Assembly: GCA_011050685.1 (NCBI GenBank) | Contig: DRFF01000169.1 | Coordinates: forward strand, 1 to 64,000 | Direction of reading: 5' to 3' | Source: Aurantimonas coralicida | GTDB lineage: Bacteria; Pseudomonadota; Alphaproteobacteria; Rhizobiales; Rhizobiaceae | DNA: 64,000 nucleotides | Shown: positions 786 to 22,310 of the stretch, in pieces | Layout of the letters: every line of letters begins with the position of its first letter | Position numbering within the stretch: the first letter of the stretch is position 1 | The notes under the pieces: generated by a model | The model's database searches: none | What the model was told of the DNA's origin: nothing | Seen by the model: only the letters and a program-made list of their open reading frames with translations | Translations under genes and position numbers: made by a program

Positions 786-1181
786 TCAATGCGGATGCTG
801 GCCGAGGCGGGAATGGAGCCGGGCGTCATGCGTCTTGAAGTGCTCGGTGAACCATGGGTCCAGCGCAGCGATCAGTCGGCCGCCTTGGTCCCCGTCGCCG
901 GCTTCGTAATCGCTCATGATATCCCGCAACTCGTCGAGCAGCCGCTCGTGATCGGCCTTGTGCTGCGCGATCTGGTCGTAGTCGTGCTCGCGCATGAATT
1001 TCTCCTCCAGCGCGAAATGCGCCGATATCCCGCGAAATAGATCGCCGAAGGCGGCGACCGCATCGCCGTCCCCGATCAGCGCGTCGCCAAGCCGGTTGAC
1101 GAGATCGATCAGTTCCTTGTGCTCGTGGTCGACAGCCGGAACGCCCACGTTATAGCTGTCCTTCCATTCCATCCGGGGCAT
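786..1181 (-). CDS. bacteriohemerythrin
   Basis: This 131-aa protein has the full hemerythrin di-iron signature: His19 and the HEH motif at the N-terminus, His55 with Glu59 (HFALEE), His74 and His78 (HKADH), and His114 with Asp119 (HFKTHD). Single-domain bacterial hemerythrins bind O2 and sometimes NO at a non-heme di-iron site in the cytoplasm. ATG 1181 is preceded by AGGAG. It is the last well-supported gene of the leftward operon containing the nitric-oxide-reductase-like genes, so a role in O2 or NO binding near that enzyme is an inference from context. Confidence 0.9.
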   Translation of the reverse strand: MPRMEWKDSYNVGVPAVDHEHKELIDLVNRLGDALIGDGDAVAAFGDLFRGISAHFALEEKFMREHDYDQIAQHKADHERLLDELRDIMSDYEAGDGDQGGRLIAALDPWFTEHFKTHDARLHSRLGQHPH

Positions 1182-1202: not shown

Positions 1203-1700
1203 TCAGTTGAACACGAAGCCGCCCTGCTCGGCGCGAAAGTCGATGACGAGATTCTGCTCCGCCGCCAGGTTAACGCGCCGTGCGGCCTCATAGTCGAAGC
1301 CATCGGCGCGCCCAGTGTCGGCCAGGCGGACGGCGATTTCATGATCGCCCGCGCCGAGCGGGAAACGCTTGTACACCCGGGCCGGACCGTCGCCGGCCAG
1401 GCCGCTCGGCGACAGTTCGGCGCGAAGCGCCGGCTCACCATCGATGTCGAGTTCGAGCCGAAGCGCCGCCCGCTCGCGATCGCAGATCTCACGCTTGCGC
1501 ATATTCGCCGGCAATCGAGCCAGTTCCTCGGCGTCGAGCTGTCGGCAGTTGCGCGCGCCGCCATGGGTGAAGCTGAGCTTCACCACGCCTGTCCCCTCCG
1601 GCAGGGTCCGCCATGACGGCGCGGCCGAGAAAAACGCGGCGCCGGTGGCGACCACCGCCGTTACGGCGGTGCCGAGGATCAGGCGACGGACCCGGCTCAT
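1203..1700 (-). CDS. small exported/anchored protein of the heme-copper operon, unknown function
   Basis: This 165-aa product starts with a basic stretch and a hydrophobic segment (residues 8-27), consistent with a signal anchor or signal peptide, so most of it should be periplasmic. It contains two Cys residues (near 50 and 72) and a beta-rich C-terminal half. The start ATG 1698-1700 overlaps the stop of the upstream cytochrome b/FeS gene as ATGA, so the two are translationally coupled. I do not recognise the family. Close coupling suggests it assists the membrane electron-transfer protein encoded just upstream. Confidence 0.75.
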   Translation of the reverse strand: MSRVRRLILGTAVTAVVATGAAFFSAAPSWRTLPEGTGVVKLSFTHGGARNCRQLDAEELARLPANMRKREICDRERAALRLELDIDGEPALRAELSPSGLAGDGPARVYKRFPLGAGDHEIAVRLADTGRADGFDYEAARRVNLAAEQNLVIDFRAEQGGFVFN

Positions 1701-3283
1701 GGGTCGACCTCCTTGAGCGGCGGGGGGAACTGCTGCGTCGCTCCCGCCGTCGGAGAAACATCGGCTGGCAGCGCCGCGAGACGATCCTGGAAGGCCGCCA
1801 ATTCGCGCGCAAGCCGCGCCGTTTCCGTCGGCCCCGCCCAGACCGTCGCCAGCCGGGCGCGCGGCACCCGGGCGCGCAGATAGGGATCGCGGGTCGCCGC
1901 GATACGTTGCTCGGTCCATTCCATGCCGAAGCGGTGCTGGCATTCCCGCTCGGCGCAACCGGCGATCGCCACGCCGTCGGCCAGATCGCGCGACAGGATG
2001 AAGTCGATCAGCGATGGCGGGGCCATGGCGACACAGGGCAGCACCACCCGTCCCGGCACATCCCTTCCCGCGGCGCCATGGGCGCAAGCCAGCGTCAGCA
2101 CCCGCCCCGGCCCTTTCAGCTCCACTGCGGCCGCGATCACCTGCTCGCGAACCATCTTCAGCGAGAGGTCGGGCAGGTCGATCCCGGTCACCAGATCGAT
2201 GGAGCGGCGGAACGGCGTCGAGGACGGGCAGGCCCCCATGCAGATGCCGCAGGCGACGCAGCGATCGGGATCGACTTCGGCCTGGTGGGGAAACGGCGCG
2301 CCATCGGTGCGCGGCACCAGTGTGACCGCGCCGTAGGGGCAATCCTCGACGCAGCGGTTGCAGCCGTTGCAATGGTCGAGAAACACCTCGGCCGGCGCCG
2401 GACGGGGCTTGGGCGGCAACCAGGGAAGGGCCGAGATTCCGACGGTGAAGAGTACGAGGCCGGCCCAGATTACCCCCGCCGGCACCAGATCCATCACCGG
2501 ATAGAGCGGCAGGATGAACCAGTCGATCCCGACCTGCGCCGGCACCATCGCCAGATCGGCCGCGGCCTGCGAGCGGGCGGGTAGCAGCAGCGAGGCTATC
2601 AACAGGCCCGCCAGCACCATGCCGCCGAGCTCCCGTCTCGGGGCGGTCCGGGCATCGCTGATCCGCTGGACATGGATCCACATCACCAGCAACAGGATCA
2701 GCGGCACCGCGATATGGAGGAACACCAGCAGGGTGAAGAACCGCCCGCTCAGCGACGCTGGCGTGAGAAAATTGCGCGCCACCGGCTCGCCGAAGAAGGG
2801 CAGCCAGTCGAGCAGCTCGGTGCTGGCGATGGCGACGTATTGCGCCAAACGGTCCCAGACCAGCCAATAGCCGGTGATGCCGGAGATATAGACCAGCCAG
2901 ATCAGCGGCACGCCGGTGACCCAGGAGAACCATCGCGCGCCGCGATGGCGCCCCCTGGCGAACTCGCGGACCAGATGAACCAGCATGACCGCGATCATCA
3001 GGTCGGACGCGTAGCGGTGAAAACTTCGCGCGATGCCGGCGTGGAACCAGTGGTCGTTGGTCAGCCACTCGATCGACGTATAGGCGTTCACCACGCCGGT
3101 ATCGAAGAAGATGAACAGATAGACCCCGGTCGCCGTGACGATCCAGAACAGGAACCAGCCGAGCGTGCCAAGCTGGGCCATCGGGTTCCACTCGGGTCCG
3201 AAGATGGCGTCGAGTGCCCGTTCGACCCGGTCGAAGCCGCGGCTCAGGGTAGTACCGACGGCTCTCATACCTCGTCCCGACAT
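1697..3283 (-). CDS. cytochrome b / 2x[4Fe-4S] / MvhD-like fusion protein
   Basis: The 528-aa protein has three visible modules. Residues about 38-205 form a cytochrome b6-like four-helix region with two His pairs (His89/His103 and His190/His204) able to hold two b hemes. A hydrophobic linker follows to about 290. Two ferredoxin-type Cys clusters (C305, 308, 311, 315 and C342, 345, 348, 352) come next. The C-terminal part (about 390-470) has Cys at 400, 417, 443 and 448 and resembles the MvhD/hydrogenase iron-sulfur subunit family. Inferred role: membrane electron transfer between the quinone pool and a soluble donor or the neighbouring CuA enzyme. It overlaps the SCO gene by 19 nt and the next gene by 4 nt. 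The architecture is clear; the function is not. Confidence 0.85.
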   Translation of the reverse strand: MSGRGMRAVGTTLSRGFDRVERALDAIFGPEWNPMAQLGTLGWFLFWIVTATGVYLFIFFDTGVVNAYTSIEWLTNDHWFHAGIARSFHRYASDLMIAVMLVHLVREFARGRHRGARWFSWVTGVPLIWLVYISGITGYWLVWDRLAQYVAIASTELLDWLPFFGEPVARNFLTPASLSGRFFTLLVFLHIAVPLILLLVMWIHVQRISDARTAPRRELGGMVLAGLLIASLLLPARSQAAADLAMVPAQVGIDWFILPLYPVMDLVPAGVIWAGLVLFTVGISALPWLPPKPRPAPAEVFLDHCNGCNRCVEDCPYGAVTLVPRTDGAPFPHQAEVDPDRCVACGICMGACPSSTPFRRSIDLVTGIDLPDLSLKMVREQVIAAAVELKGPGRVLTLACAHGAAGRDVPGRVVLPCVAMAPPSLIDFILSRDLADGVAIAGCAERECQHRFGMEWTEQRIAATRDPYLRARVPRARLATVWAGPTETARLARELAAFQDRLAALPADVSPTAGATQQFPPPLKEVDP

Positions 3284-4089
3284 CGCCCCACCGGCCGCCG
3301 GTTACCCAGCCAGAGCCGCAGGATCACGATCCCCGTCAGGATCAGCGAGAGCCCGCCAAGCACGATGCCGAAGCCGATCGCATAGTCGAACTCGTAGGCC
3401 CCCGTCGCCGGGTTGTAGGTCGTGCAGATGAACTTGATCCGGTCGATCAGGCCCTCGCGAGTGATCCCTCGCAGGCTCGTGCCATAGATCAGGTCCTTGA
3501 GCGGTTCCAACAACATCTGGATCGGGAAGTCGTCGCCATAGATATGGCGGTAGACGCGCCCCTCGGCGTCGAGGATCGTCGTCTGGGTGATGTGCTCGAA
3601 GCCGCCCGCCGCGGCGCGGTAGCTGAAGCCGACATCGGCGAGAAGCCGCCGCAGCGTCGCCGCGTCGGCGCTGGCGAGCCGCCAGTCCGCCTCGGGAATA
3701 CGCTGTGTTTTGGCGAAGGCGTCGAGCCGGGCCGGCGTGTCGTTGCGGGCGTCGAAGCCGAGCGTCAGCACCGAGAATTGCTGCGCGCCGAAGACGCGAC
3801 GCGCCTCCTCGACCGCCTCGATTATCCGCTGCGTCGTCGGCGGACAGACCGACGAGCAACTCGTATAGACGATGCTGACCACCAGCGGCCGGCTGCGAAG
3901 CTCGGCCAGCGGGAGCGACGCGCCATGACGGTCGACCAGCGTATAGTCGCCGACGAGCTCGCCGACCGCGGCTTCGCTCGCGGCCACCACCTCGGCCGGG
4001 TCGAAGCTCTCGGCGCCCTGCGTCCGCGACGGCAAGAGGGCTGCGAGCAGGAGCGCGGCAGCGGCGAGACGGCGGATCAGGTCGCCCAT
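3265..4089 (-). CDS. senC: SCO1/SenC copper chaperone
   Basis: SCO-family proteins deliver copper to, and reduce, the CuA centre of heme-copper enzymes in the periplasm. This 274-aa protein has an N-terminal signal segment (about residues 7-20), the CxxxC copper site (C78 and C82 in TSCSSVC) and the conserved distal His166. It also has a C-terminal transmembrane helix (about 237-259), which is less usual. ATG 4089 lies inside the 3' end of ctaB (13-nt overlap). A SenC gene beside a CuA subunit II and a catalytic subunit matches the norSY-senC arrangement described for sNOR enzymes. Confidence 0.9.
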   Translation of the reverse strand: MGDLIRRLAAAALLLAALLPSRTQGAESFDPAEVVAASEAAVGELVGDYTLVDRHGASLPLAELRSRPLVVSIVYTSCSSVCPPTTQRIIEAVEEARRVFGAQQFSVLTLGFDARNDTPARLDAFAKTQRIPEADWRLASADAATLRRLLADVGFSYRAAAGGFEHITQTTILDAEGRVYRHIYGDDFPIQMLLEPLKDLIYGTSLRGITREGLIDRIKFICTTYNPATGAYEFDYAIGFGIVLGGLSLILTGIVILRLWLGNRRPVGRCRDEV

Positions 4090-4956: not shown

Positions 4957-6690
4957 TCACCGGAACAGCCAGAGGTCGGACAGATACTTCCAGTTGACGA
5001 AGTAGTAGAGCACAAAGGAGACGAAGAAAATCGTCACCAAAACGATCGTGCCCGGCAGCTTGACCGTGCCCTCGCTGCCGTAGTGCGATGCCGCATACGG
5101 TCCCTGTGCGTGCAGCGGGAACTGCATCGGCTGCGCTCCGGCGGTGTCGAGCTTCTTGCCGAAGAACACGGTGCCAACCGTGATCAGGATGTAGAGCGCG
5201 CCGCCCAGGCCCGCGATGAGCGCGAAGATGCCGTTCAGCCCCATCATCAGGAAGGCACCGGGCGCATACTCGAAGGCATGCGCTGCATCGGTCAGGGTGA
5301 TGTCCCAGTGCCGCCGCGCGACGCCGAGGGTGCCCGCCCCCATCATGAACAGCGAGATGCCTCCGGCGCCGATGCCGAACAGATAGGGCTGCCACTTCGC
5401 CAGCTTCGGCCAGATGACCTCGCGTTGGAAGATGAGCGGCAACAACAGATAGGTCACCGCCATGAAGGCGAGCGTGGTGCCGGCGACGACAGTGCCATGG
5501 AAATGGCCGGGCACATAGATGGTGTTGTGCATCAGGACGTTGAGCTGTTCGGTGCCGAGCACGACACCGGAGATGCCGCCGATAAAGCCGAACATCACCA
5601 GGCTGAGGAACATGCCAGAGAAGGCCGGGTTGCCCCAGGGCGCCTTCTGCAGCCACTCGAACCACCCCTTCCGGAAGCCGTTGCGCCGCTGCGCCGCCTC
5701 GATCGCGCCGGGGACCGTCAGTCCGTGGATCATCGAGCCCATGACGGCCAGATACATCATATAGGAGGTGTTGATGATCTTCCACTCGGAACTCATGCCG
5801 GGTTCGGCCAGCAGATGATGCGCCGAGGCGAGTTGCAGGAACAGGATATACATCAGGAAGGCGGTCCGGCTGACCTTCTCGGACAAGGGCTTCGCCCCCA
5901 CCACCAGCGCCGCGATCAGATACCAGACCGAAACATGGGCTGAAACGTTCATCTGCTGCGAGGAATGGCCCATCCCCCACCAGATCACCTTGTACATCAG
6001 CGGATCGATGTTCGAGATCAGCCCGAGCGACCAGAGCCAGGTCGGGATCAGGATGATCGCGCCGGACGCGATGGTGAATACCGCGATAATCGCCGCCGTC
6101 AGTGCGCCGAAGGTGACCAACGGTATCGATCCCTCATAGGTGCGCTCGGCACGGGCGATGACCAGAGTACCGAAGAAGACCGCGACGCCGATCAGTGCGC
6201 CGACCGCGAAGAGAATCAGCGATAGATAGAACCAGGACGACGCCATCATCGGCGGGTAGGAGGTGAACATCACGGATGAGTCGCCGCGCAGCACCGCGTA
6301 GTTCGCCATCAACGCGCCGACGATCATCAGCACGAAGCCGAGCCAGGCAAATTTCGGCGCGGCGAGACGCGAGTTCAGGAGAACCGCCGAGGCTAGATAG
6401 AGAATCGCGATCTCGAAGAATATGATCCAGAAGAGCAGCACATTGGCGCCGTGCCCGGTCAGGACCAGATAGAACCACTCGGCCGGCAGAAGATGCACCG
6501 CCGGCCAGCGGGTCAGCGCCACCGCCACCCCCATCAGCCCGCCGAGCATGAGAAAGACGACGGCAGCCACCGCATTGGCCTTGATCAGTCGCTGAGCGGC
6601 GACGTCCACCTTCAGCCCGGTGTAGCCGCATTTGCGGAACACGGCCTCGGAAAAAGCGCCTGGCGCGATGCCTGCATCGATCGTGGTCAT
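4957..6690 (-). CDS. norY: heme-copper catalytic subunit, probable CuA-type nitric oxide reductase (NorY/sNOR-like)
   Basis: The 577-aa protein has about 12-14 transmembrane helices and keeps all six histidines of the heme-copper superfamily: His80 and His398 for the low-spin heme, His396 for the high-spin heme, and His242, His291 and His292 for CuB. Oxidases of families A and B have a Tyr four residues after the first CuB His (HPEVY type), cross-linked to His. Here the motif is GHSSQQ, so position 246 is Gln. Loss of this Tyr is typical of nitric oxide reductases. With the CuA subunit, SenC, nir neighbours and an FNR box, an sNOR/eNOR-like NO reductase is the best call. A divergent oxidase remains possible. 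ATG 6690 has AAAGGAG upstream. Confidence 0.75.
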   Translation of the reverse strand: MTTIDAGIAPGAFSEAVFRKCGYTGLKVDVAAQRLIKANAVAAVVFLMLGGLMGVAVALTRWPAVHLLPAEWFYLVLTGHGANVLLFWIIFFEIAILYLASAVLLNSRLAAPKFAWLGFVLMIVGALMANYAVLRGDSSVMFTSYPPMMASSWFYLSLILFAVGALIGVAVFFGTLVIARAERTYEGSIPLVTFGALTAAIIAVFTIASGAIILIPTWLWSLGLISNIDPLMYKVIWWGMGHSSQQMNVSAHVSVWYLIAALVVGAKPLSEKVSRTAFLMYILFLQLASAHHLLAEPGMSSEWKIINTSYMMYLAVMGSMIHGLTVPGAIEAAQRRNGFRKGWFEWLQKAPWGNPAFSGMFLSLVMFGFIGGISGVVLGTEQLNVLMHNTIYVPGHFHGTVVAGTTLAFMAVTYLLLPLIFQREVIWPKLAKWQPYLFGIGAGGISLFMMGAGTLGVARRHWDITLTDAAHAFEYAPGAFLMMGLNGIFALIAGLGGALYILITVGTVFFGKKLDTAGAQPMQFPLHAQGPYAASHYGSEGTVKLPGTIVLVTIFFVSFVLYYFVNWKYLSDLWLFR

Positions 6691-6701
6691 GGCGCTCTCC
6701 T

Positions 6702-7235
6702 TTATTCAGTCACGCGAATCCGGCCGGTCATCTGGTGATGGCCGATGCCGCAATACTCGTTGCAGACGATGCCGAACTCCCCCGCCTCGGTCGGCGTCAG
6801 GGTGATGACATGTTCGTATCCAGGCTGGACCTGGATGTTGATGTTGGTCGGCTGCAGCGAGAAACCGTGCTGCCAGTCGGCCGAACTCATATGGATGCGG
6901 TAGCTCTGGTCCTTCTTCAGCTCGAGAATCGGCCACCACTCCCAGAGACGCGCGAGTAAATAGACCTCCTCACCGGCCGGCGGGCGGACCACCGGCACGC
7001 CCTCCTCCTCGCCGACCTGCCACTGTTCGGCGAACGCCTCGACCTTTTCGACATATTTGTCCGGGTTGATCCGGTAGGTCTCATTCGCAAGGTTCTGATC
7101 GCCGATGAAGTGCCAGGCGATCATGAAGAAGAACATGAACAGGCCCCAGAGGAAGGCGATGACGATCCAGCTGAGCTCGATCTTGTGGATCGGCTCGTTC
7201 CACCAAATCCGGTTTTGTGGAGGGGTGATGGCCAT
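6702..7235 (-). CDS. norS: heme-copper enzyme subunit II with CuA site (NorS-like)
   Basis: This 177-aa protein has one N-terminal transmembrane helix (about residues 22-44) and a cupredoxin domain facing the periplasm. The CuA ligands are all present: His123, then Cys158, Glu160, Cys162, His166 and Met169 in the CNEYC-x3-H-x2-M motif. CuA accepts electrons from a cytochrome c or cupredoxin and passes them to the catalytic subunit. It is short, with a single helix, as in ba3-type and norSY-type enzymes rather than the two-helix form of aa3 oxidases. AGGAG precedes ATG 7235, and the gene ends 12 nt before the catalytic subunit start. Confidence 0.88.
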   Translation of the reverse strand: MAITPPQNRIWWNEPIHKIELSWIVIAFLWGLFMFFFMIAWHFIGDQNLANETYRINPDKYVEKVEAFAEQWQVGEEEGVPVVRPPAGEEVYLLARLWEWWPILELKKDQSYRIHMSSADWQHGFSLQPTNINIQVQPGYEHVITLTPTEAGEFGIVCNEYCGIGHHQMTGRIRVTE

Positions 7236-7244
7236 CTCGGACTC

Positions 7245-7406
7245 CTATTGGGCGAGCGGAATTGTGACGATCTCCATCACGCCCCAGATCAGATAAAGCA
7301 CAGTGGGGATTGTGATCCCGAACACCAGCAGCAGGAAAGGGTTGTCGAGAAGCTGCTGCATGAAAGGGATACGCTCCGGGCGCGGAGTGTCCGGTTCATC
7401 GGCCAT
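7245..7406 (-). CDS. small single-helix membrane protein, first gene of the heme-copper operon
   Basis: A 53-aa frame runs from ATG 7406 to TAG 7245, ten bases before the CuA subunit start. The polar N-terminus (residues 1-20) is followed by one hydrophobic helix (about 23-50). Heme-copper enzymes often have such small accessory subunits encoded first in the operon, so it is likely a small subunit or assembly factor; no specific family is recognised. It lies 68 bp downstream of the FNR-type box at 7474-7487, which makes it the promoter-proximal gene of this operon. Confidence 0.75.
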   Translation of the reverse strand: MADEPDTPRPERIPFMQQLLDNPFLLLVFGITIPTVLYLIWGVMEIVTIPLAQ

Positions 7407-7473: not shown

Positions 7474-7487
7474 TTGACGAAAGTCAA
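7474..7487. promoter_or_regulatory. FNR/NNR-type box for the heme-copper operon
   Basis: The sequence TTGAC-GAAA-GTCAA is a near-perfect dyad matching the Crp/Fnr-superfamily consensus TTGAT-N4-ATCAA used by FNR, Dnr and NnrR. It lies 68 bp upstream of ATG 7406, suitable for activation at about -41.5, and overlaps the last codons of cbiX. It implies that the norSY-like operon is induced by low oxygen or NO, like nirS. The regulator encoded at 20780-21487 is a candidate partner. Confidence 0.75.
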
Positions 7488-8278
7488 GTATTGGAAATTC
7501 TCGTGCCGAGAGCACCCGAGCGAGTTGCCAAACGCGATACGGCCGCTCGAACCGGAATTTTTACGGCATCCATCGACAGCGCGGCCGCGACGATCTGCGC
7601 GATCTCCGGCCGCATCCCCACGGGATCGAGCATCGGGCCAGGAAAGGCCGCTTCGGCGAGAGCCCGGGGCAAATCGACATCGACATGCCCCGCATGCCCG
7701 GCAAAGAACGGCAGGCACAGGGCCGGGCCATTGAGCCGCGCCGCCTCGGCAAGATACGGAACCTCGTCCACGAAGCCGACGCGAACGTCGCGAACCAGCC
7801 CGGCGGCGGCGATAAAGCGCGCGGCCTTCTCGGCGGCTTCGCGTGGCCGGGGATCCGACGGCGATCCATGCGCGGCGAGAAGGATCGTGGTCTCCTGCAG
7901 CGATAAATCTCGCTCCGACGCAGCGCGGCGCACGCAATCAAGGCAAAGCGCGTGCAGGGCCGGATCGAGCCCCAGCGGCGACAGCATCGCGAAGGCGCTG
8001 TCGCAGAGCTCGCCGATCCGCCGCGGCAACTCGCGGCTGACAAACCAGCCGTCCGACATGAACAATGGATAGATCGACACCTGCTGGCTTCCGAGCGTGT
8101 CGAGCGTGGCTTTGAGCGTGCCGCGACCGGCGAGCGTCGCGCCCCGCACGGTCCAGCCGTGAAGCCTCGCCGCCACACGATCGGCCAGCGCGTGCAGGTC
8201 CTCCTCGGGCCGCCCGGGCGCCGAGGGGGAGCCGTGCGCGACAATGAGCGCGGCGCGCGACTCAGTGGCTGGTGCCAT
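7484..8278 (-). CDS. cbiX: CbiX-type sirohydrochlorin chelatase family protein
   Basis: This 264-aa protein is a two-domain chelatase of the CbiX/SirB type. The N-terminal half has the AHGSPSA motif (about residue 15) and the C-terminal half repeats it as AAHGSPSDPR, and a third His-rich segment (FAGHAGH) lies near residue 210. Such enzymes insert Fe or Co into sirohydrochlorin. In a nir cluster, iron insertion to make siroheme, the substrate of NirDLGH, is the likely job (inference). ATG 8278 is preferred over 8305 because it overlaps nirN by only 17 nt and begins just before the conserved strand. Its 3' end contains the FNR-type box of the next operon. Confidence 0.82.
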   Translation of the reverse strand: MAPATESRAALIVAHGSPSAPGRPEEDLHALADRVAARLHGWTVRGATLAGRGTLKATLDTLGSQQVSIYPLFMSDGWFVSRELPRRIGELCDSAFAMLSPLGLDPALHALCLDCVRRAASERDLSLQETTILLAAHGSPSDPRPREAAEKAARFIAAAGLVRDVRVGFVDEVPYLAEAARLNGPALCLPFFAGHAGHVDVDLPRALAEAAFPGPMLDPVGMRPEIAQIVAAALSMDAVKIPVRAAVSRLATRSGALGTRISNT

Positions 8279-9812
8279 CCGAAAAGCTGATCTTGTTCCA
8301 GACATTGTACTTCCCCGAAGGCTTTCTCATCGGCAACCGGGTGACTTCCTCAAGCGTTTGCGCATCGTAGACAATGACCGCGCCGTCATCCTCCCAGACG
8401 CTGACCAGCGCATACTTGCCGTCCCGATCGAACTCGACATGGGCGACGGTGGCGCCGGGAACCGGACGCAGGGTCTTGACGATCTCCAGCGTCTGCTTGT
8501 CGATTACATGCATCGCGTCGCGGTTCGGGCCGAAGAACACATCGGCCCAGACATAGCGGCTGTTTTCGTGGCTGCGCAGGAAGAAGCCGGGACCGAGGGT
8601 CTCGATCGTCTTGACCACCTGCCAGGTCTCGATGTCGATGACCGACAGCCGCGCCTCCTTCAGGTGCGGCGTCGCCATCACCCGCCGGCCGTCTCTGATC
8701 CAGGAGATGCCCGAGCCGAGATGCGGCAGGCCGGGCAGCGGCAGCTCCGCGATCTCGCGACCGACGGTCAGGTTCACCACGACCCCGCGTTCGCCGTCGC
8801 GCGCCGCGCCGATCAGGTGGCGATAATCCGGCGTGAAGAAGAAGTCGTCGAGCGAGCTCGTCACCGCAATCCGGCGCAGCGCGAACAGCCCCTCGGACCC
8901 CGCGATCGCTTCGACCATCCCCTTCTCGTAACTGTGGACATAGCCCTCATAGACCGGTGCGGCATTGGGATCGGTCGCGATCTCCCAGATTTCCGGCGCG
9001 TCCTTGAGCGCCAGGATGAAACTGTCGCGCTGCGGCGCCTGATAGACGGCGGATACCCGCGAGGGCGTGCCGTCCTTGTCCGCCACCTCAAAGACTTTCT
9101 CCACCGACAAATCCGCGGTCGCAAGGATGGTCAGGGTGCGCGGCAGATAGTTGGCTACCGCCAGATGCTTGCCATCCTTGGAGATCGCGATGTTGCGGCT
9201 GTTCAGCCCGGCGCGGACACGGCCGATCTCGGCAAGGCTCCACAGATCGTATTTCTGCACCCAACCGTCGCGCGACATGATGAAGACGAACCGCCCGTCG
9301 GGCGTGAATTTCGGCCCGCCATGCACGGCAAAGGGCGTCGGGAAGCGATCCAGCACCGTAAAGCTGTCCCCGTCAACGACACTGACGTGATGATCGCCGG
9401 TCTCGACGACGAGGAACAAGTTCAAAGGATCGGCGTCGAAGGCCGGGGCCGTGACGGGCACATAGTCCGGGTCGAGCGTCCGGGTTTGTTCGATCTGCTC
9501 CGGACCCCAGTCCGGGATTTTCGCCAGCGACGTGGTCAGGTAATCGCCGAGAGCGGCGATCTCGTCCGGGCTCAGGGTCTCGGCGAAGCCGGGCATTTGC
9601 GTCGCGGCGCGGCCTTCGGCGATCACTACGCCAAGCTTCGGCCCGCGCATGCGTTTCAGCGTCTCCGGGATCAGCGCAGGCCCGGTGCCGCCGAGTCGGT
9701 CGGCGCCGTGGCATTCGGCGCAATACCGCGAATACTGCGCCCGCGGCTCACCCTGCGCCGCCCCGGCGAAGGCCGTCAGCAACAGGCTAGTGAAAACGAT
9801 GAACCGGATCAT
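8262..9812 (-). CDS. nirN: dihydro-heme d1 dehydrogenase NirN
   Basis: NirN is a periplasmic c-type cytochrome that oxidises dihydro-heme d1 to heme d1 in the last step of the pathway. The 516-aa product has a signal peptide (residues 1-21), one c-heme motif (C31, C34, H35 in CAECH), and an eight-bladed d1-type propeller from about residue 110 to the end, related to NirS. The conserved C-terminal block GKYNVWNK aligns with the end of NirS (GKFNVFNT here). Its start overlaps the NirJ stop by 26 nt. Lower similarity to NirS elsewhere and its place after nirJ favour NirN over a second NirS. Confidence 0.9.
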
Positions 9813-10995
9813 GGCTCTTTCCCCGAAACGGCGTGACAGTCAGGCGCCCACCCGCTTTGACCCCGATCTCGGCGTCGCTCATGTAGCAGGCAGGATCCTC
9901 GGCCCAGGGATCGCCTGTGAGCTGCAATGCGCGGATTCGGGTATTGCCGCCGCACACGCTCTGATAGGCGCAAGCCCCGCAACGGCCCTTCAGCGGGCGC
10001 GGACGGCGGCGGAGCTGCGCCAGCATCGGGTCGTCACCGGTCCACAGTTCGGAGAAGCGGTGCTCCTTGACGCTGCCGATGGTGTAGTCCGACCAATAGG
10101 TGTCGGGATGCACGTTGCCCTGCGGGTCGATGTTGGCCACGCCCAGACCGGAGGAATTGCCGCCCCAGGCCTCCAGATGCGCGCGCAGATGCGCGACCCG
10201 CTCGGCCGGGAAAAGGCGTTCGGCCCAGCGCAGGAAATAGACCGCGTCAGCGTCGTTGTTGCCGGTGACGATCTCCAGCGGCATGCCTTCGGCCGCCGCA
10301 ATCCATGCGCGATCGATCAGAAGCTCCATCGCATGGCGCGTCCGCGACCAGCCGACATCCTCGCCGCGGTGCTTGTCGCCCCGTCCGGCATAGACCAGAT
10401 GCGACAAGTAGAACTTGTCCACCCCTTCGGCATCGGCCAGCGCCAGCATTTCGGACAGCTGATGGGCGTTGTCCTCGGTGATAGTGAAGCGCAGGCCGAC
10501 CTTGATGTTGCGCTCCTTGCAGGCCCGCACGCCCGCCAGCGCCTCGTCAAAGGCGCCGACCTTGCCGCGAAACCAGTCGTTGGTCTCGCCGATCCCGTCG
10601 AGGCTGATGCCGACATAGTCGAAGCCGATCTCAGCCACCCGGTCAGCCGTCGCGCCGACGATGGCCGTGCCGTTGGTGGAAAGCGCGAGATACATCTTCA
10701 TCTGCCGCGCCCGCTCGGCAATCTCGAAGACGTCGCGGCGGGCCAGCGGTTCCCCGCCGGAAAGGATCAGCGCGGGGATACCGAAATCGCCGAGATCCTC
10801 CAGCACGCCCATCGCCTGCTCATGGGTCAGCTCTCCGGGAAACGCCACATCCGCCGAACTCGTGTAGCAGTGGCGGCACCGCAGGTTGCAGCGCCGGGTC
10901 AGGTTCCAGATCACCACCGGCTTGACCGGCCCGCGGCGCGCGCACACCGGGGTCGGCTCGACCAGTTGACGCATATAATGCGAGAGGCGGAACAT
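9787..10995 (-). CDS. nirJ: heme d1 biosynthesis radical SAM protein NirJ
   Basis: NirJ is a radical SAM enzyme that acts on didecarboxysiroheme to introduce the keto functions of heme d1. The 402-aa protein has the CxxxCxxC cluster motif (C36, C40, C43), a following GGEPL segment (about residue 85), and a C-terminal SPASM-like Cys cluster (CGAC-x4-C with a further Cys). ATG 10995 overlaps the last base of the nirH stop codon by 1 nt, so the long open frame upstream of it is a shadow. It is cytoplasmic and expected to need SAM and a reductant. Confidence 0.93.
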
Positions 10996-11486
10996 CAGCG
11001 CCCTCCTTTGCGGCCGAGCCGCAGACCGGTTTTCTTCAGGATGCGGGTCGAATAGAGGATGTCGCCGCTGCAGCAGGCGGGGCCGAGCAGTGCCGCGATA
11101 TGCCCGCGCTTTTCCTCGACCTCGTTGCGATCGCCGCCATGCACCATGGCGAAGAGATTGTAAGGCCAGACGGGTCGCGCGCGGGGCCTCAGATAGCAGT
11201 GCGAGACGAAATCGAGCGCCCCCACATCGGCGCCAAGCCGCGTCGCCGCGCTGTCCTCCACGTCCCAGACCGTCATGCCGTTGGCGATCATGCCGAGCGC
11301 GTAATGATTGGGCGCCGCCCCGATGCGGCGGATCACGCCGCGTTCCCGCATGGCCGCCATGCGCGCGATCACCTCGGCTTCGTCCAGTCCCAACTCCGCC
11401 GCGATCGCGGCATAGGGCGCGGGCGTCAGCGGAAGCCCCGCCTGGGTGGCCTCGATGATCCCGCGGTCGATCGCGTCGATGCTCAT
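10995..11486 (-). CDS. nirH: siroheme decarboxylase subunit NirH-like
   Basis: This 163-aa protein belongs to the AsnC/Lrp-like NirD/L/G/H family, which decarboxylates siroheme to didecarboxysiroheme. It has an N-terminal winged-helix-like region (about 5-60, containing [17 protein letters not shown]) and a C-terminal ferredoxin-like domain with the conserved [13 protein letters not shown] motif. NirH rather than NirG is assigned from gene order and from the WPYNL motif, which is shared with the L half of the fusion gene. The family is firm; the exact letter is less so. It overlaps nirG by 4 nt (ATGA). Confidence 0.85.
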
Positions 11487-11947
11487 GCCGCCACCCTGAA
11501 ACCGATGAAGAATTCCTGCAGCTTCGGAAACCGCAGCACGGCAATCCCCGTCTCCGCCTCGATTTCATCGGCGACGGCCTCGACCGCCTCCGCCGTTTCG
11601 GTCGCCAGCACGAACCACATGTTGAGACGATGCTCGCGTTGGTAATTGTGCGCGACCTCCGGATGGGCGTTGACCGCAGCCGCCACGGCCTCGAAATGCT
11701 CGGCCGGGACCTCCATCGCGCACAGGCAAAAGGCCCCTCCAATCGCGGCCGCGTCGTAGAACGGGCCGAAACGCGTGATCACGCCGGTTTCGCGCATGCG
11801 GCTCAACCGCGAAATCAGTTCGGTCTCGCTCAGGCCAAGCCGCGTCGCCGCCTGAGCATAGGGACGCGGCGACAGGGGAAACCCTTCCTGCAGGGCGTTG
11901 ACGATCCGCCGGTCGGTCGCGTCGAGTTCAGGCGCGGGACGTCTCAT
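11483..11947 (-). CDS. nirG: siroheme decarboxylase subunit NirG-like
   Basis: The 154-aa product is another Lrp-like siroheme decarboxylase component. Visible marks are the conserved [15 protein letters not shown] segment (about residue 53) and [13 protein letters not shown] (about 98), the D/G-type version of the substrate-binding strand. ATG 11947 overlaps the nirDL stop as ATGA, so the frame upstream is a shadow of nirDL. It forms one complex with NirDL and NirH in other denitrifiers. Separation of G from H rests on order and motif type. Confidence 0.85.
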
Positions 11948-12936
11948 GCCGCTGCTCCTTCCGTGGACGCCACCAACGCGCCCGTCTGCTTGAAGCAGCG
12001 AATGCTGAACAGCACCCGATGCGGCGTATCCTGAAGTCCGACCTCGCGGCTGGCGCGCTCGAGCACCGCCATCGCCTCGTCGCGGCCGCGGGCATGGATC
12101 ATGCAGTAGAGCGTGTAGGGCCAAACGCCGGGCGCCGGGCGTCGTTGATAGCAGAGCGTGACGCCGTGCACGGCGGTCAGCGCCGGTCCGATGCGGCCCA
12201 GATCGGCCTCCTTCGCCTCCCAGACCACCATGGCGTTGGATCGCCAGCCGAGCGCGCGGTGACGTACGATGACACCGATCCGCGACAGAATACCGGCCGC
12301 GGCAAGCACCTTGACCCGTTCCAGCACGTCCGCCTCGGACCGGCCGAGCGCGCGACCCATTTCGGCGAAGGGCCGGGGCACCAGCGCCAGGCCGGTCGAG
12401 AGCGCCTGCATGATCGGCCGGTCCTCCGGTTCCAGCACGCCCGCGTCGATATGTTCGCGCGCCGGCGGCACATGGCCGCCACCGTCGAGCGAGAAGCCCA
12501 GGTCGACATTGAACGCGCGCACCAGCGGCAGATCGAGGACCTCAAGTTTCGTGCGCGCGCGAATCCGGTCAAGCGTCGCGTCGACATGGGTGCGATCGGG
12601 GCCGGTCACCACGAACCAGATGTTCCAGCGGTTCTCGCGCAGATAGGAGTGGTTCACGCCCGGCTCGCCGCCGATGAGGGCGGCGATCTCGTCGATCCGC
12701 CATTCGGGAGCCGCGACGGCGGCCAGCGTGCTCGCGCCCGCGGTGCCCGGCCGACAGGTGGCGCCGACGCGGCTGACGGCGCCAACGGCCATCAGCTCGG
12801 CGAGCCGGCCAAGAACGTCCTTCTGGCGAAGGTCCATCCGCTCGGCGATCGCGGCAAACGGTCGTGGCACCAGCGGGAAATCCCGCTGCCAATTGTCGAG
12901 CAGCGCACGATCGATGCTATCGACGGTCAAGCTCAT
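11944..12936 (-). CDS. nirDL: NirD-NirL fusion, siroheme decarboxylase subunit
   Basis: The 330-aa product contains two tandem Lrp-like units of about 150 residues. The first (NirD-like) has SRVGATCRPGTAGAS and NHSYLRENRWNIWFV. The second (NirL-like, from about residue 165) has SRIGVIVRHRALGWRSN and CYQRRPAPGVWPYTLYCM. NirD-NirL fusions occur in several denitrifiers. Together with NirG and NirH it removes two carboxyl groups from siroheme in the cytoplasm. It starts 4 nt after nirF ends and overlaps nirG by 4 nt. Confidence 0.92.
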   Translation of the reverse strand: MSLTVDSIDRALLDNWQRDFPLVPRPFAAIAERMDLRQKDVLGRLAELMAVGAVSRVGATCRPGTAGASTLAAVAAPEWRIDEIAALIGGEPGVNHSYLRENRWNIWFVVTGPDRTHVDATLDRIRARTKLEVLDLPLVRAFNVDLGFSLDGGGHVPPAREHIDAGVLEPEDRPIMQALSTGLALVPRPFAEMGRALGRSEADVLERVKVLAAAGILSRIGVIVRHRALGWRSNAMVVWEAKEADLGRIGPALTAVHGVTLCYQRRPAPGVWPYTLYCMIHARGRDEAMAVLERASREVGLQDTPHRVLFSIRCFKQTGALVASTEGAAA

Positions 12937-12939
12937 CGC

Positions 12940-14106
12940 TCAGAGCCCCGTCCGGTGGGCGCGCGCGGTGAAGAAAATCCCCGACGGGCTCTCCGCCGCG
13001 ATCTCGCCCAGCTTCTCGAAACTGCGCGCGTCGTAGATATCGATGCGCCCGGCGTCGCGGACCGAAACCCAGACCTCGTGGCCGCGGGCGGTGAATTCCA
13101 TGTGCAGCACGGCGGGTCCCGGCGTCAGCGTATGGATCACCTCGCCCGAAAGCGTATCGATCACCTCGATCGTATCGTTCAAAGGGTGAGCGAAATTGAC
13201 CCAGACCTGGCGCCCGTCCGGGCGGGCGACGGCGAAGACCGGCTGGCCGTGGGTTGCCGTGCGCCCCACCTCCGCCAGCGTCCGCGCGTCCACCCAGAGC
13301 ACTTCGTGCCGCCCGACGGCGGGCAGGACAAAACGGTCGCCCGCCAGCGCCCAGCCTTCCAGATGCGGCATCTTGTAGACCGGCAGCGCTTCCTCGCCCT
13401 TGCCGTAGCCCGAAAGAATCCGCCGCGGAACCGGCGGTTCCTGCCACAGATCGAGCGCCGTCAGCCCGTCCTCGCCGAACAACCCCACGATGTAGCGCCG
13501 TCCGTCGCCGGTGATCAGCGCGTCATAGGGGTTCGTCCCGATACCGCCGATCCGGGTGATCGCCGGTTCCTCGCCGGAGAAGTCCGCGATCCACGTCTCC
13601 CCCGCGTCCCACAGGGTGAAGACGAAGCGCCGCCCCGGCGCGTCGACCAGGCCGATGGTCTTCGACCCGGTCGGGATGTCGGCGACGCTCTCCAGCGTTT
13701 CGGCATCGAAGACGCGCACGCCGCCCGGCTCGTAGTTCGAGACCGCGACGAGTTGCCCGTCGTCGGAGATCGCGCCGCCGATAGCGTTGCCGGACTGCAT
13801 GACGCGGGCCGCGATCGACTGGGCCAGCAGATCGACCTTGGTCAGCCCGCCGTCGCGCCCGAAAACGAAGGCGAAACGCTCGTCCGCCGAGAACACCACC
13901 GAAGCATGGGACAGATCGCCCAGGCCCTCGACCCGCCCGATCGCGGCGTGCTCGGACTGGTCGATGATCAGCAGCGAGCCCGAGGCCCGTTCTACAACCA
14001 CGCCCAGATCGCCGGTGGCACGGGGCTCCTGCGCCTGGGCGACGCCAAGGAAGACCGCGGAAATCGACGCCAGCATGATCAGGCCAAGGGAAAAGCCACC
14101 GCTCAT
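12940..14106 (-). CDS. nirF: heme d1 biosynthesis protein NirF
   Basis: NirF is a periplasmic d1-propeller protein without a c-heme domain that acts late in heme d1 synthesis. The 388-aa protein has a signal peptide (about residues 1-25) with no CxxCH motif, then a seven- to eight-bladed beta-propeller resembling the d1 domains of NirS and NirN; the C-terminal part has the family-typical VEVIDTLSGE-like strand and the SPSGIFFTARAHR ending. Its start overlaps the nirC stop as ATGA. Absence of the c-heme motif separates it from NirN. Confidence 0.92.
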   Translation of the reverse strand: MSGGFSLGLIMLASISAVFLGVAQAQEPRATGDLGVVVERASGSLLIIDQSEHAAIGRVEGLGDLSHASVVFSADERFAFVFGRDGGLTKVDLLAQSIAARVMQSGNAIGGAISDDGQLVAVSNYEPGGVRVFDAETLESVADIPTGSKTIGLVDAPGRRFVFTLWDAGETWIADFSGEEPAITRIGGIGTNPYDALITGDGRRYIVGLFGEDGLTALDLWQEPPVPRRILSGYGKGEEALPVYKMPHLEGWALAGDRFVLPAVGRHEVLWVDARTLAEVGRTATHGQPVFAVARPDGRQVWVNFAHPLNDTIEVIDTLSGEVIHTLTPGPAVLHMEFTARGHEVWVSVRDAGRIDIYDARSFEKLGEIAAESPSGIFFTARAHRTGL

Positions 14107-14417
14107 TCGTTGCCTCCGTCCAAGAGATAGCCGGCGATCCAGGCCGCCTCGTCCTCGCTGAGGAGCGGGCGCCAGGGCGGCATCGCGGTTCCCGGAACGC
14201 CATCGAGAATGATGGCGACAAGCCCGTCGGGCTGCGTCCCGGCCAGCGTCTCAGCGCGGATATCCGGACCCAGCCCGCCTTTCAGCGTCATTCCGTGGCA
14301 TGAGCCGCAATCCTGCAGCACCAAACGCTCGAGTTCAGCTGCCCGACCCGGCGGCAGCTCCTGCGCCAACGCCGGTGCCCCGATAACGAGCAAAAGCGCC
14401 GCCAGAACCTCACGCAT
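14103..14417 (-). CDS. nirC: cytochrome c55X-type protein NirC
   Basis: NirC is a small periplasmic monoheme cytochrome c associated with NirS maturation or electron delivery. The 104-aa product has a signal peptide ending near residue 18 (APALAQ), the heme motif C37-C40-H41 (CGSCH) and a distal Met ligand near residue 80 (TAMPPW). ATG 14417 gives a standard signal peptide. An in-frame ATG at 14432 would add five residues and cannot be excluded, as neither has a strong Shine-Dalgarno sequence. It overlaps the end of nirE by 8 nt. Confidence 0.88.
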   Translation of the reverse strand: MREVLAALLLVIGAPALAQELPPGRAAELERLVLQDCGSCHGMTLKGGLGPDIRAETLAGTQPDGLVAIILDGVPGTAMPPWRPLLSEDEAAWIAGYLLDGGNE

Positions 14418-15198
14418 GAGCCAACGGCGCATGAACGGCGGCAAGATGCGTGAACATTTCGGCGGGTGACGAGCGGTAAAGCGAGACGACATCGCCGATC
14501 AGGAACAGCACCGGGCCGGTGAGACGCGCCTCGGCCATGTCGCTGGCGATCCGGTCCAGACGGGAGGTCAGCCGCCGCTCGCGCGGCGTCGTCGCATTGG
14601 CGATGGCCAGCACCGGCGTTGTTGCGGGCATGCCGTGCGCGGTCAGCCGTTCGGAAATCTCGGCGATATTGGCAGCCCCCATATAGACGACCAGCGTGGT
14701 CTGGCTGTCCGCCAGTCCCGGCCATTCAAGGTCGAGCGGCCTGTCGCTCCGGCAGTGTCCGGTCACGTAGCGCACCCCCGTCGCCAGCCCGCGATGGGTC
14801 AGCGGCACACCGGTGACGGCGGCAGCCCCCTGCGCCGCCGTGATGCCGGGGACGATGTCGACCGGGATTCCCGCGGCCAGCAAGGCTTCCGCCTCTTCCG
14901 AGCCGCGGCCGAAGATGAAAGGGTCGCCGCCCTTCAATCGCACCACCGTCTGCCCTTCGAGTGCCAGCTCGACGAGGATTTCGTTGATCCGCTCCTGCGG
15001 AACCGGATGGGAGGTCGGCGCTTTGCCGACCGGCACAAGCCGCGCGGTCGGCGGCGCCAGCGCCAGCACCTCGGGCGACACTAGACGGTCATGGACCACG
15101 ACATGCGCCAGTTCCAGCACGCGCGCCGCTTTCAACGTCAAAAGCTCCGGATCGCCCGGACCCGCCCCGACCAAAAACACCCGTCCACGCGTCTTCAT
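14410..15198 (-). CDS. nirE: uroporphyrinogen-III C-methyltransferase NirE
   Basis: This 262-aa SUMT/CobA-family methyltransferase makes precorrin-2 from uroporphyrinogen III with two SAM molecules, the first committed step toward siroheme and heme d1. Family motifs are VGAGPGDPELLT (residues about 10-21), VVRLKGGDPFIFGRG (about 84-98), and the VYMG region near 172. It lies between nirS and nirC, so it is named nirE rather than cobA. A precorrin-2 dehydrogenase is not in the window and would be supplied elsewhere. Confidence 0.93.
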   Translation of the reverse strand: MKTRGRVFLVGAGPGDPELLTLKAARVLELAHVVVHDRLVSPEVLALAPPTARLVPVGKAPTSHPVPQERINEILVELALEGQTVVRLKGGDPFIFGRGSEEAEALLAAGIPVDIVPGITAAQGAAAVTGVPLTHRGLATGVRYVTGHCRSDRPLDLEWPGLADSQTTLVVYMGAANIAEISERLTAHGMPATTPVLAIANATTPRERRLTSRLDRIASDMAEARLTGPVLFLIGDVVSLYRSSPAEMFTHLAAVHAPLAHA

Positions 15199-15255: not shown

Positions 15256-19205
<3,950 letters not shown>

Positions 19206-20213: not shown

Positions 20214-20783
20214 TCAGACCGCAAGCGCGGGCGCAAGCTCCGGCGGCAGATCGAATTCGGCGGCGACGCGCGCGCGTCCCTTGGCCGACATCTTGCGCGC
20301 GGTCTTGACGACGATGCCGAAGATTTTTTCCTGGTCGTGCGTGGCGGCGAAATCCGCGAAATACCAGCGCAGGAACACCAGGCAGATCACGTCCTCCAGC
20401 ATCTGCACCTCCGGGTCGCGCTTGATCCCCTCCTTGCGCAGCATCTGCGCCACGCGCGCGCCATCCGATTCGCTGTAGCCCGCCGCGATCATCAATTCCG
20501 CCACCCGCGCGCCATGCGCCAGCGCCTGCGCTTTCCGCCAGGCGTGATAGCCCTCGCGGCTGTTGGGATACGCGCTTCGCGGCAGCTTCCAACGCTCGAT
20601 GTGCTGTCCGCGCGCCGCGATCCGCAGATGCTCGGAGGCACCCGGGCAGATTCGATCGAGCTCCCCTGCCATCCGCCGGCCATAGACAAGCGCCGCCGGT
20701 TCCCGCGTCTCCGCTTCCAGCGTCGGATCGGCGGAATTGGCCCTGTCGATCGCGACGATGACTGCCTCGAATCGCCCGCTCAT
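20214..20783 (-). CDS. DUF4202 family protein
   Basis: The 189-aa cytoplasmic protein matches the DUF4202 family by its opening (FEAVIVAIDRANSADP), the central RSAYPNSREGYHAWRKAQ block, and the C-terminal EDVICLVFLRWYFADFA motif. The molecular function of this family is unknown. It overlaps the stop of the Crp/Fnr gene by 4 nt, so the two are co-translated, and both sit at the edge of the nir cluster. This coupling suggests a link with denitrification or nitrogen and sulfur metabolism, but no activity can be stated. Start ATG 20783 is supported by the overlap. Confidence 0.85.
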   Translation of the reverse strand: MSGRFEAVIVAIDRANSADPTLEAETREPAALVYGRRMAGELDRICPGASEHLRIAARGQHIERWKLPRSAYPNSREGYHAWRKAQALAHGARVAELMIAAGYSESDGARVAQMLRKEGIKRDPEVQMLEDVICLVFLRWYFADFAATHDQEKIFGIVVKTARKMSAKGRARVAAEFDLPPELAPALAV

Positions 20784-21487
20784 TGGGCCTTGCTCCAGGC
20801 ATCGGCGCGATCCTCTTCGACATAGGAGCGCAACCGTCCGACATCCGCGATGGCGGCGTGATTGTGGCTGATCGCCACGCCGCGCTGCTTCAGCCGCGAA
20901 AAGGCGCGGGACAAGCTTTCGGGCTTCATGCCCAGCCGCCCCGCGATCAGCACCTTGTCGTAGGGCAAGGTAACGGTGCATGCGCCTTCGGCGACGTGGC
21001 AGAGGTCGAGCAGGAATTCGGCCAGCCGTTGCGCGCCGGTCTGGGCCTTCAGTTGCTCGACCTGTTCGACCAGCGCGTGGAGGTGCTTGAAGGTCGCCGC
21101 CAGCATCGAGATGCAAAGCTCCGGCTGCGACTTCATCATCTGCAGCACCACTGCCGCGGGAACCTGCATCAGCCGGCAATCGGTGACCGCCTCGGCGGCG
21201 ACCGGATAGACGTCGCCGCGAAACGCCACCGCCTCGCCGAAGCTTCGGCCCTTGGTGAAGGTTCCGACCACCGCCTCCGCGCCGTTATGCGCGATCCGGA
21301 ACAGCTTTACCCATCCTTCCAGCACGATATAGACGCTATTGGCGGTATCGCCCTGCAGGAAGATCGTCGCCGAGCGGTCAAACCGCCGGACGTCGGACCG
21401 CGCCAGGATCATGTCGGCGACATCCTCGGGTATACTGGCCAAGAGGATAGACCCCTTCGCAATCTGCCAATCGCCTTCCCGGTGCAT
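20780..21487 (-). CDS. Crp/Fnr-family transcriptional regulator (Dnr/NnrR-like)
   Basis: The 235-aa protein has an N-terminal cyclic-nucleotide-binding-like beta-barrel (about residues 20-125), a long dimer helix (about 130-155) and a C-terminal HTH (about 180-210, with GRLGMKPESLSRAF, giving the ExxSR pattern that reads TTGA-type half sites). It lacks the N-terminal Cys cluster of FNR, so it is not an oxygen-sensing Fe-S protein. That fits the Dnr/NnrR class that senses NO through heme. The three TTGA-type boxes in this window are plausible targets. It is convergent with nirX. Confidence 0.88.
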   Translation of the reverse strand: MHREGDWQIAKGSILLASIPEDVADMILARSDVRRFDRSATIFLQGDTANSVYIVLEGWVKLFRIAHNGAEAVVGTFTKGRSFGEAVAFRGDVYPVAAEAVTDCRLMQVPAAVVLQMMKSQPELCISMLAATFKHLHALVEQVEQLKAQTGAQRLAEFLLDLCHVAEGACTVTLPYDKVLIAGRLGMKPESLSRAFSRLKQRGVAISHNHAAIADVGRLRSYVEEDRADAWSKAQ

Positions 21488-22310
21488 TGGTTTCTCCGGT
21501 TATGGTTTGGGATCATCGAACGCCCAGACCTAACACCAGATGCCGCCACGGGATCAATGCGGAGGAACCCAGAACCGGTCCCGGCAAGCGCGTGATGATC
21601 GCCGGATAGTCGGTGCTGGGAGCCGCGCCGAGGGCGGCCTTCCAGCTCGAGCCCGGTTCGGCAGAGTTCTCGGTCCTTGCGGTTGAACAAGGCCACTGTG
21701 AAATCACGTGCGGCCTTCGCCCCAACGCTTTGATTCAAACGGTTGAAAACATTGCCGGAAGACCGGCAACGCGTTGAGGCTACGTAATTCCCCTAAGAAC
21801 ATAACCGAATTTCGGGCGACCATGATCGGCGCCAGGGTTTCCCCCATCGGCCTCGGGAAACTTCTAAGCCGTTCGAACAGTCACGTGCCTGTTCGAACCG
21901 TCGCCGGCGTTGCATCGAGCACATCAGGGCGACGTTCCAGGTGTCGGAACGCTTCGCCTGTATTTATGATCTCAGGCATTGGCCAGGCGTAGGCCGTACC
22001 ATGCTATGGAAAGGCGGAAGGGGAAGCTCGATCACCCGCCATTCCTCATCAGCCAGACCGCTCAGGCGGCACCACGAAAAGGTTGGGTTTGTCCCCGGCC
22101 TTTTCCTTAAGACGCCCATCGACTTGATCCATGTCAAACCCCGCGAACGACACCGCGCCTAGCGTCCACCGTGGCCAGCGCGCCAGCTCACTGACGGCGC
22201 GAATGATCCGAACGGGAGCGAATTCGATGGATCCGCGACTGCCCATCTTTGGATCCATCTCGCGGCACGCTTGGCGCGCCGTACTCCCTCATCGAAAGGA
22301 GACCAGCATC
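21488..22310. other. intergenic region with an FNR-type box and a GC-rich hairpin
   Basis: I see no convincing gene in these 823 bp; the open frames have poor composition and no good ribosome binding sites. A perfect 7-bp hairpin (TTGCCGG-AAGA-CCGGCAA, 21752-21769) follows a TTGATTCAA sequence, and an FNR-type box lies at 22124-22137. The region carries the promoter of the leftward Crp/Fnr gene and that of the rightward rhodanese-like gene. Confidence 0.6.
22124..22137. promoter_or_regulatory. FNR/NNR-type box upstream of the rhodanese-like gene
   Basis: TTGAT-CCAT-GTCAA fits the Crp/Fnr-superfamily consensus. It is 174 bp before ATG 22311, which implies a leader of about 130 nt if it activates at -41.5. 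No other rightward gene lies between. It puts the exported rhodanese-like protein in the likely denitrification regulon. Confidence 0.65.

Follow-up and report, generated by a model that had tools for sequence, protein, structure and literature searches.

The window analysed here, a 64-kb stretch of Aurantimonas coralicida DNA (positions 1 to 64,000 of contig DRFF01000169.1, GenBank assembly GCA_011050685.1), in all likelihood encodes a CuA-bearing heme-copper nitric oxide (NO) reductase (NOR) of the eNOR type, judging by its predicted proteins. This kind of enzyme has already been described, is little studied and is also known from Alphaproteobacteria; it was reportedly named by Hemp and Gennis in 2008. 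A preliminary description of positions 4957-7406 had favoured NO over O2 as the substrate, and this preference is supported by a glutamine at position 246 of the catalytic subunit (Gln246), the clade in which that subunit falls, the CuA site of its partner, a nirS neighbourhood and FNR/NNR-type promoter boxes. The window is part of contig C169 in a 4.86 Mb genome, and at the eNOR gene its closest named relative, 97% identical, is a contig recorded as uncultured Aurantimonas sp., which probably places the source among the Hyphomicrobiales (Alphaproteobacteria). A genome contig search found at least 546 stretches that encode a relative of subunit I, and the 80 loci kept, mostly labelled Alpha- or Gammaproteobacteria or subgroups of these, make up with four plasmid loci the 84 eNOR loci referred to below (L and G numbers denote individual loci and genomes). 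The box and, in operon order, the genes of the window are as follows:

7474..7487, no strand assigned: FNR/NNR-type box, TTGAC-N4-GTCAA, before the eNOR operon
7245..7406, minus strand: open reading frame (ORF) of 53 amino acids (aa), one-helix membrane protein, the operon's first gene, recognised in 78 of 84 loci
6702..7235, minus strand: eNOR subunit II, 177 aa, N-terminal transmembrane helix and CuA cupredoxin domain
4957..6690, minus strand: eNOR subunit I, the catalytic heme-copper subunit, 577 aa, COX1 domain at 206 bits
4077..4946, minus strand: ctaB/cyoE, heme o synthase, TIGR01473 at 234.8 bits, above cut-off
3265..4089, minus strand: SCO1/SenC copper chaperone, PF02630 above cut-off at 40.7 bits, with the start taken from the sequence itself
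1697..3283, minus strand: 528-aa fusion of a diheme cytochrome b (H89/H103 and H190/H204) with two [4Fe-4S] sites and an FlpD/MvhD domain, the usual eNOR companion
1203..1700, minus strand: 165-aa protein whose N-terminus is hydrophobic, identified at 58 of 84 loci
786..1181, minus strand: bacteriohemerythrin, recognised in 63 of 84 loci

The 53-aa ORF lies inside the range covered by the preliminary description, where it went unmentioned. SenC/SCO and ctaB, expected there to follow the catalytic gene, are both present downstream of it, in the opposite order, as ctaB precedes SCO.

Subunit I keeps all of the heme-copper ligands (H80, H242, H291, H292, H396 and H398), so that the six canonical histidines stand where they had first been placed. 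Within H242-S-S-Q-Q246, Gln occupies the position four residues after the His at which oxidases carry a cross-linked Tyr, and this replacement, likewise proposed at the outset, can be read in the ORF and recurs throughout the family. In an alignment of 131 subunit I proteins, residue 246 is Gln in 111/111 eNOR-type rows (80 of them retrieved with patterns that also specified the adjacent Q245, so that their motif region is not an independent sample) and Tyr in 13/13 B-type rows. The 26 genome-sample rows and the plasmid rows were obtained by whole-protein similarity, and all of them have Gln. Given this split between the two groups, Gln246 is a mark of the family rather than an error or a chance substitution, and it departs from the Tyr at this position that defines B-type oxygen reductases. 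On the Thermus thermophilus ba3 oxidase, Q246 corresponds to Y237, H242 to H233, H291/H292 to H282/H283, H396 to H384 and H398 to H386.

In PMC8756737, eNOR is recognised by an active-site Gln (alignment position 323), is credited with a cupredoxin subunit II and a single predicted proton channel, and is reported from Alpha-, Beta-, Gamma- and Deltaproteobacteria; its table gives the corresponding residue as Asn in sNOR and CuANOR (bNOR), Asp in gNOR and Glu in cNOR and qNOR. The adjacent ORFs at 6702-7235 and 4957-6690 encode a subunit II of the cupredoxin (CuA) type and subunit I, as in eNOR, and Gln246 differs, as a comparison of residues, from the Asn of sNOR and CuANOR, the Asp of gNOR and the Glu of cNOR and qNOR. 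Further papers describe eNOR as biochemically characterised (PMC11388526), use it as a named class (PMC12569097, PMC8114936, PMC10734462, PMC10359470, PMC9270275 and PMC11707229), name a 2024 PNAS paper by Murali as the source of the NOR classes (PMC12569097) and report that eNOR shares an operon with nirK in Ardenticatena (PMC4653789).

The preliminary description had likened the gene order to norSY-senC, and that the enzyme might accordingly be an sNOR is a reading to which we give almost no credence. We take sNOR to share a CuA-type subunit II and a nearby SCO gene, and the cluster indeed has both. However, the active-site residue of sNOR is Asn, whereas the window protein has Gln and clusters only with Gln-bearing proteins, and the likeness does not hold at this point. 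Moreover, sNOR has no predicted proton channel according to PMC8756737, whereas a K-type path can be mapped here.

When 54 of the 131 alignment rows (34 Gln-bearing, 13 B-type, 4 A-type and also C-type) were used for a maximum-likelihood tree, with Gln-bearing genome and plasmid rows as references, all 34 Gln-bearing rows, including that of the window, fell on one side of a branch with support of 100/100. The 13 Tyr-bearing B-type rows neighbour this clade (80/98), and the A-type and C-type rows lie farther away; a position within an oxidase clade, the outcome that the preliminary description had named as a refutation, was sought and did not appear with the references used. The top Protein Data Bank (PDB) sequence matches of subunit I are ba3-type (B-type) oxidases, with no NOR among the 22 matches at E 0.001, and its predicted structure (mean pLDDT 81.9) superimposes on ba3 chains with Z of about 35 (for 4fa7, a root-mean-square deviation of 2.4 over 477 residues). 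NCBIfam returned no eNOR model: the best match, CtaD, scored 51.8 bits where the cut-off is 670.75. Viral contigs, searched with subunit I as the query, yielded no relative. In the same tree, the eNOR of a contig labelled Saprospiraceae (L088) nests among Hyphomicrobiaceae rows, so that this contig may be mis-binned or its gene recently transferred.

Subunit II holds the CuA ligand set H123, C158, E160, C162, H166 and M169, all six ligands of the complete site that had been attributed to it. Its Glu20 aligns with a Glu that is invariant in 8/8 subunits II compared, and the ba3 K-channel residues S309, T315 and Y248 have conserved counterparts in S319, a Thr or Ser at 325 and Y257. At the ba3 position Y244, eNOR-type rows have Val or Ile (Val253 in the window protein), and at T312 they have His322, invariant in 111/111 rows. 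On our assumption that the numbered ba3 residues play their K-channel roles and that Glu20 of subunit II sits at the channel mouth, a modified K-type proton channel is plausible in this eNOR. The enzyme thus resembles the T. thermophilus ba3 oxidase in its neighbouring tree group, CuA subunit II, full set of His ligands and three channel counterparts, and differs from it in the exchanges of Tyr237 for Gln246, T312 for His322 and Y244 for Val253.

Directly upstream of the eNOR operon, and on the same strand, lies a nir cluster that runs from nirS to cbiX and contains the heme d1 genes, as the earlier report of an adjoining nirS cluster had held:

17074..17087, no strand assigned: FNR/NNR-type box before nirS
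15256..17010, minus strand: nirS, cytochrome cd1 nitrite reductase
14410..15198, minus strand: nirE/cobA, uroporphyrinogen-III C-methyltransferase
14103..14492, minus strand: small c-type cytochrome, likened to nirC from its position alone, without an NCBIfam match at 1e-10
12940..14106, minus strand: nirF-like cytochrome d1 domain protein
10995..12936, minus strand: siroheme decarboxylase genes (nirH/G/DL-like)
9787..10995, minus strand: nirJ, heme d1 radical SAM protein, TIGR04051 at 592 bits, above cut-off, start estimated from the ORF
8262..9812, minus strand: nirN-like cytochrome c-cytochrome d1 protein
7484..8305, minus strand: CbiX-type chelatase, likely to serve siroheme supply for heme d1

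The strict box pattern TTGAY-N4-RTCAA occurs three times in the window (7474-7487, 17074-17087 and 22124-22137) against 0.11 occurrences expected, and 0/100 shuffles reached as many. The first of these boxes precedes the 53-aa ORF by about 68 bp and the second precedes nirS by about 64 bp, so that the FNR-type box proposed for the eNOR operon is there and has a counterpart at nirS. Across the 80 of the 84 loci that have the 53-aa gene and enough upstream DNA, a strict box was found in the 360-bp tile before 40/80 related operons compared with 40/3604 control tiles from the same loci. The third box has a CRP/FNR-family regulator gene nearby (20780-21487, minus strand).

The association with nirS extends beyond the window. 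In samples of 299 Pseudomonadota and 289 Alphaproteobacteria genomes we scored co-occurrence from the 4 or 5 top-ranked first-look candidates of each genome, such that absence is not proof; the sampled genomes are related, whereas Fisher p-values presume independence, so that the counts are associations and not probabilities, and many are drafts, in which a location on another contig need not mean a distant one. eNOR was found in 30/299 Pseudomonadota genomes (32 matches minus two weak ones; G227 is a partial match), and nirS in 24/30 of these compared with 19/269 of the others.

Several observations weigh against the assignment of this enzyme as an NO-reducing eNOR. Six of the 30 eNOR genomes lack a nirS match, and 40/80 related operons lack a strict box in the tested tile. 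The tree was built without named sNOR, gNOR, bNOR or nNOR references and without a characterised eNOR such as, reportedly, that of Rhodothermus marinus, and in the structural comparison the scores of A-type oxidase chains are a little higher than those of ba3 chains (Z of 36.4 versus 35.2), so that the overall fold alone assigns no family. Y233, Y281, Y310 and Y313 recur almost without exception in eNOR and seldom in B-type rows, which makes a relocated catalytic Tyr formally possible. Finally, the genome also encodes a cNOR-type NorB on contig C56, all 13 PDB matches of which are NO reductases; eNOR as the sole NOR of the genome is thereby ruled out, and the argument cannot rest on it.

The four eNOR-specific tyrosines, together with the oxidase-like overall fold and the annotation of homologue records as cytochrome c oxidase, are what an O2 reductase of B-type lineage would have in its favour, if it either dispensed with Tyr at 246 or used a Tyr elsewhere, as C-type oxidases do. 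We nonetheless consider such an enzyme very unlikely: no Tyr follows the HH pair at the C-type site (AHHLLAEPG, versus GSHHLHY in the genome's own ccoN), the FNR-type boxes and the nirS neighbourhood point away from it, and the genome is already supplied with A-type and cbb3 oxidases. As an NO reductase, the eNOR would catalyze the same reaction as cNOR (NorBC), from which it differs in that cNOR has an active-site Glu and a heme c partner. In this genome, eNOR would seem to be the NO reductase that serves denitrification under FNR control, and the cNOR possibly has a role in NO stress, a division of labour that we infer. At the cNOR locus (L134:1945-6278), a gene for a two-CxxCH cytochrome lies upstream of NorB, a YtfE-type repair gene downstream, and an NsrR-like gene is divergent. 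A nosZ-like gene in the same genome scored 471 bits, below the cut-off of the single NosZ model tried.

Electrons from a periplasmic c-type cytochrome would enter the CuA site of subunit II and pass through the low-spin heme (H80/H398) to the site formed by the high-spin heme (H396) and CuB (H242/H291/H292), where two NO would be converted to nitrous oxide (N2O), with Gln246 in the place of the Tyr on which oxidases depend for O-O cleavage. Protons would probably be drawn from the cytoplasm by way of the modified K-type path (Glu20 of subunit II, Thr325, His322, Ser319 and Tyr257), and ctaB and SCO would probably supply heme and copper insertion. An FNR/NNR-type regulator probably induces the operon together with nirS, and co-induction of the two would mean that NO is consumed as soon as NirS forms it. 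The genes for the steps from nitrite to NO and from NO to N2O are neighbours under promoter boxes of one kind, an arrangement that lends itself to a clean genetic test.

The cytochrome b-iron-sulfur (FeS)-FlpD protein is probably a dedicated electron-transfer partner in this scheme. Its gene was recognised at 77/84 eNOR loci (76/80 genome loci and 1/4 plasmids). The four genome loci in which it was not recognised (L053, L088, L096 and L110) all break off no more than 1.7 kb from subunit I; among the plasmids, that of Defluviimonas has it, and it was not found in the fetched flanks of two T. thermophilus plasmids and a Thermomicrobium megaplasmid. In the Pseudomonadota sample the companion is present in 29/30 eNOR genomes (all but G069) and in 4/269 others (G121, G137, G145 and G278), and among the 29 genomes with both it is on another contig in 13 and at least 13 kb away in 2 more. 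In the Alphaproteobacteria sample it occurs in 18/18 eNOR genomes, drawn from 13 families, and in one other (G552, 86% complete), and lies within 5 kb of eNOR in 17/18. Because it is present in 6/6 eNOR genomes without a nirS match and in only 2/19 nirS genomes without eNOR, the companion tracks eNOR and not nirS.

Within the companion family, the four His of a bis-His diheme cytochrome b, the eight Cys of two [4Fe-4S] sites and the FlpD cysteines are conserved, with C400, C417 and C443 found in 30/30 rows and C448 in at least 90%. In a profile search of the PDB, the first half of the family matched cytochrome b6/bc1 and the second half ferredoxin-type and MvhD chains, as in Fd-MvhD proteins, and among the best 60 of 172 matches each best match spans one part only. 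The likeness to cytochrome b6/bc1 is confined to this first half, with no Rieske or cytochrome c1 part among the Pfam matches of the protein. A fold search returned the expected folds only and barely covered the FeS and FlpD parts. Table A3 of PMC8756737 lists RME88945.1, a single ORF with cytochrome b6, FeS, FlpD and c-type cytochrome domains; literature searches on eNOR and on FlpD, outside which the main eNOR paper fell, found no title or abstract on a partnership of eNOR with the companion.

These patterns of conservation and co-occurrence suggest that the companion is most likely a dedicated partner of eNOR with a role in electron delivery. It might instead be a maturation factor for eNOR, acting for example on heme, given that its gene adjoins the assembly genes ctaB and SCO and co-occurs with eNOR even when the two are on separate contigs. 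We regard this as rather unlikely, since the family conserves the heme and FeS ligands of a full electron-transfer chain and the domain combination of RME88945.1 fits electron transfer. Starting again from an electron-transfer partner, it may be that the eNOR of Pseudomonadota is no self-sufficient enzyme of two subunits but requires the companion, which would supply it with electrons from quinol or tie NO reduction to a cytoplasmic iron-sulfur carrier, and joins with it, the small third subunit and the hemerythrin in one NO-respiring module, a tentative proposal that we lean slightly against. If the companion is required, the picture of eNOR as supplied with electrons by cytochrome c only would be incomplete, and the companion gene would provide a second marker of the pathway.

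Compared with eNOR as described, the enzyme itself shows nothing that sets it apart: it shares the active-site Gln, the CuA subunit II, the occurrence in Alphaproteobacteria and, with Ardenticatena, the linkage with a nir gene, and plausibly also the one predicted proton channel. By contrast, an operon with the cytochrome b-FeS-FlpD gene, the hemerythrin and the 53-aa protein is absent from the portions of the published descriptions examined.

An Rfam scan of positions 1-24000 of the window detected one tRNA and nothing else. On contig C95 of the same genome (L136:3955-6903), a ccoN-like subunit I, which scores 256 bits where the cut-off is 583, reads GHHHLLQ in place of HHLHY and is without the cbb3 Tyr, and the next gene encodes a ccoO-like subunit extended by an additional stretch of cytochrome c. 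By its predicted proteins, this is a C-type heme-copper enzyme that lacks the usual catalytic Tyr.

The plasmid loci add further variation. The Defluviimonas plasmid NZ_CP156080.1 (L119) carries an eNOR operon in the gene order of the window, with no nirS within its 14 kb flanks. On a T. thermophilus plasmid (L121:2796-9668), nirS and an eNOR-type pair lie within 7 kb and the pair is annotated as a ba3 oxidase; because the plasmid records examined label such genes as cytochrome c oxidases, the turnover of NO and N2O is readily underestimated wherever they are present. In the T. thermophilus plasmid subunit I, Lys replaces the low-spin-heme His (HFK versus HFH) in 6/6 copies from five strains (L120, L121, L166, L167, L168 and L169), and at least 10 T. 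thermophilus records are among the matches listed. A literature search on a Lys heme ligand returned results in which the phrase was absent. The low-spin-heme His is kept in the other 109/111 eNOR-type rows, and the HFK motif suggests either His-Lys ligation of the low-spin heme or an altered role for the plasmid enzymes.

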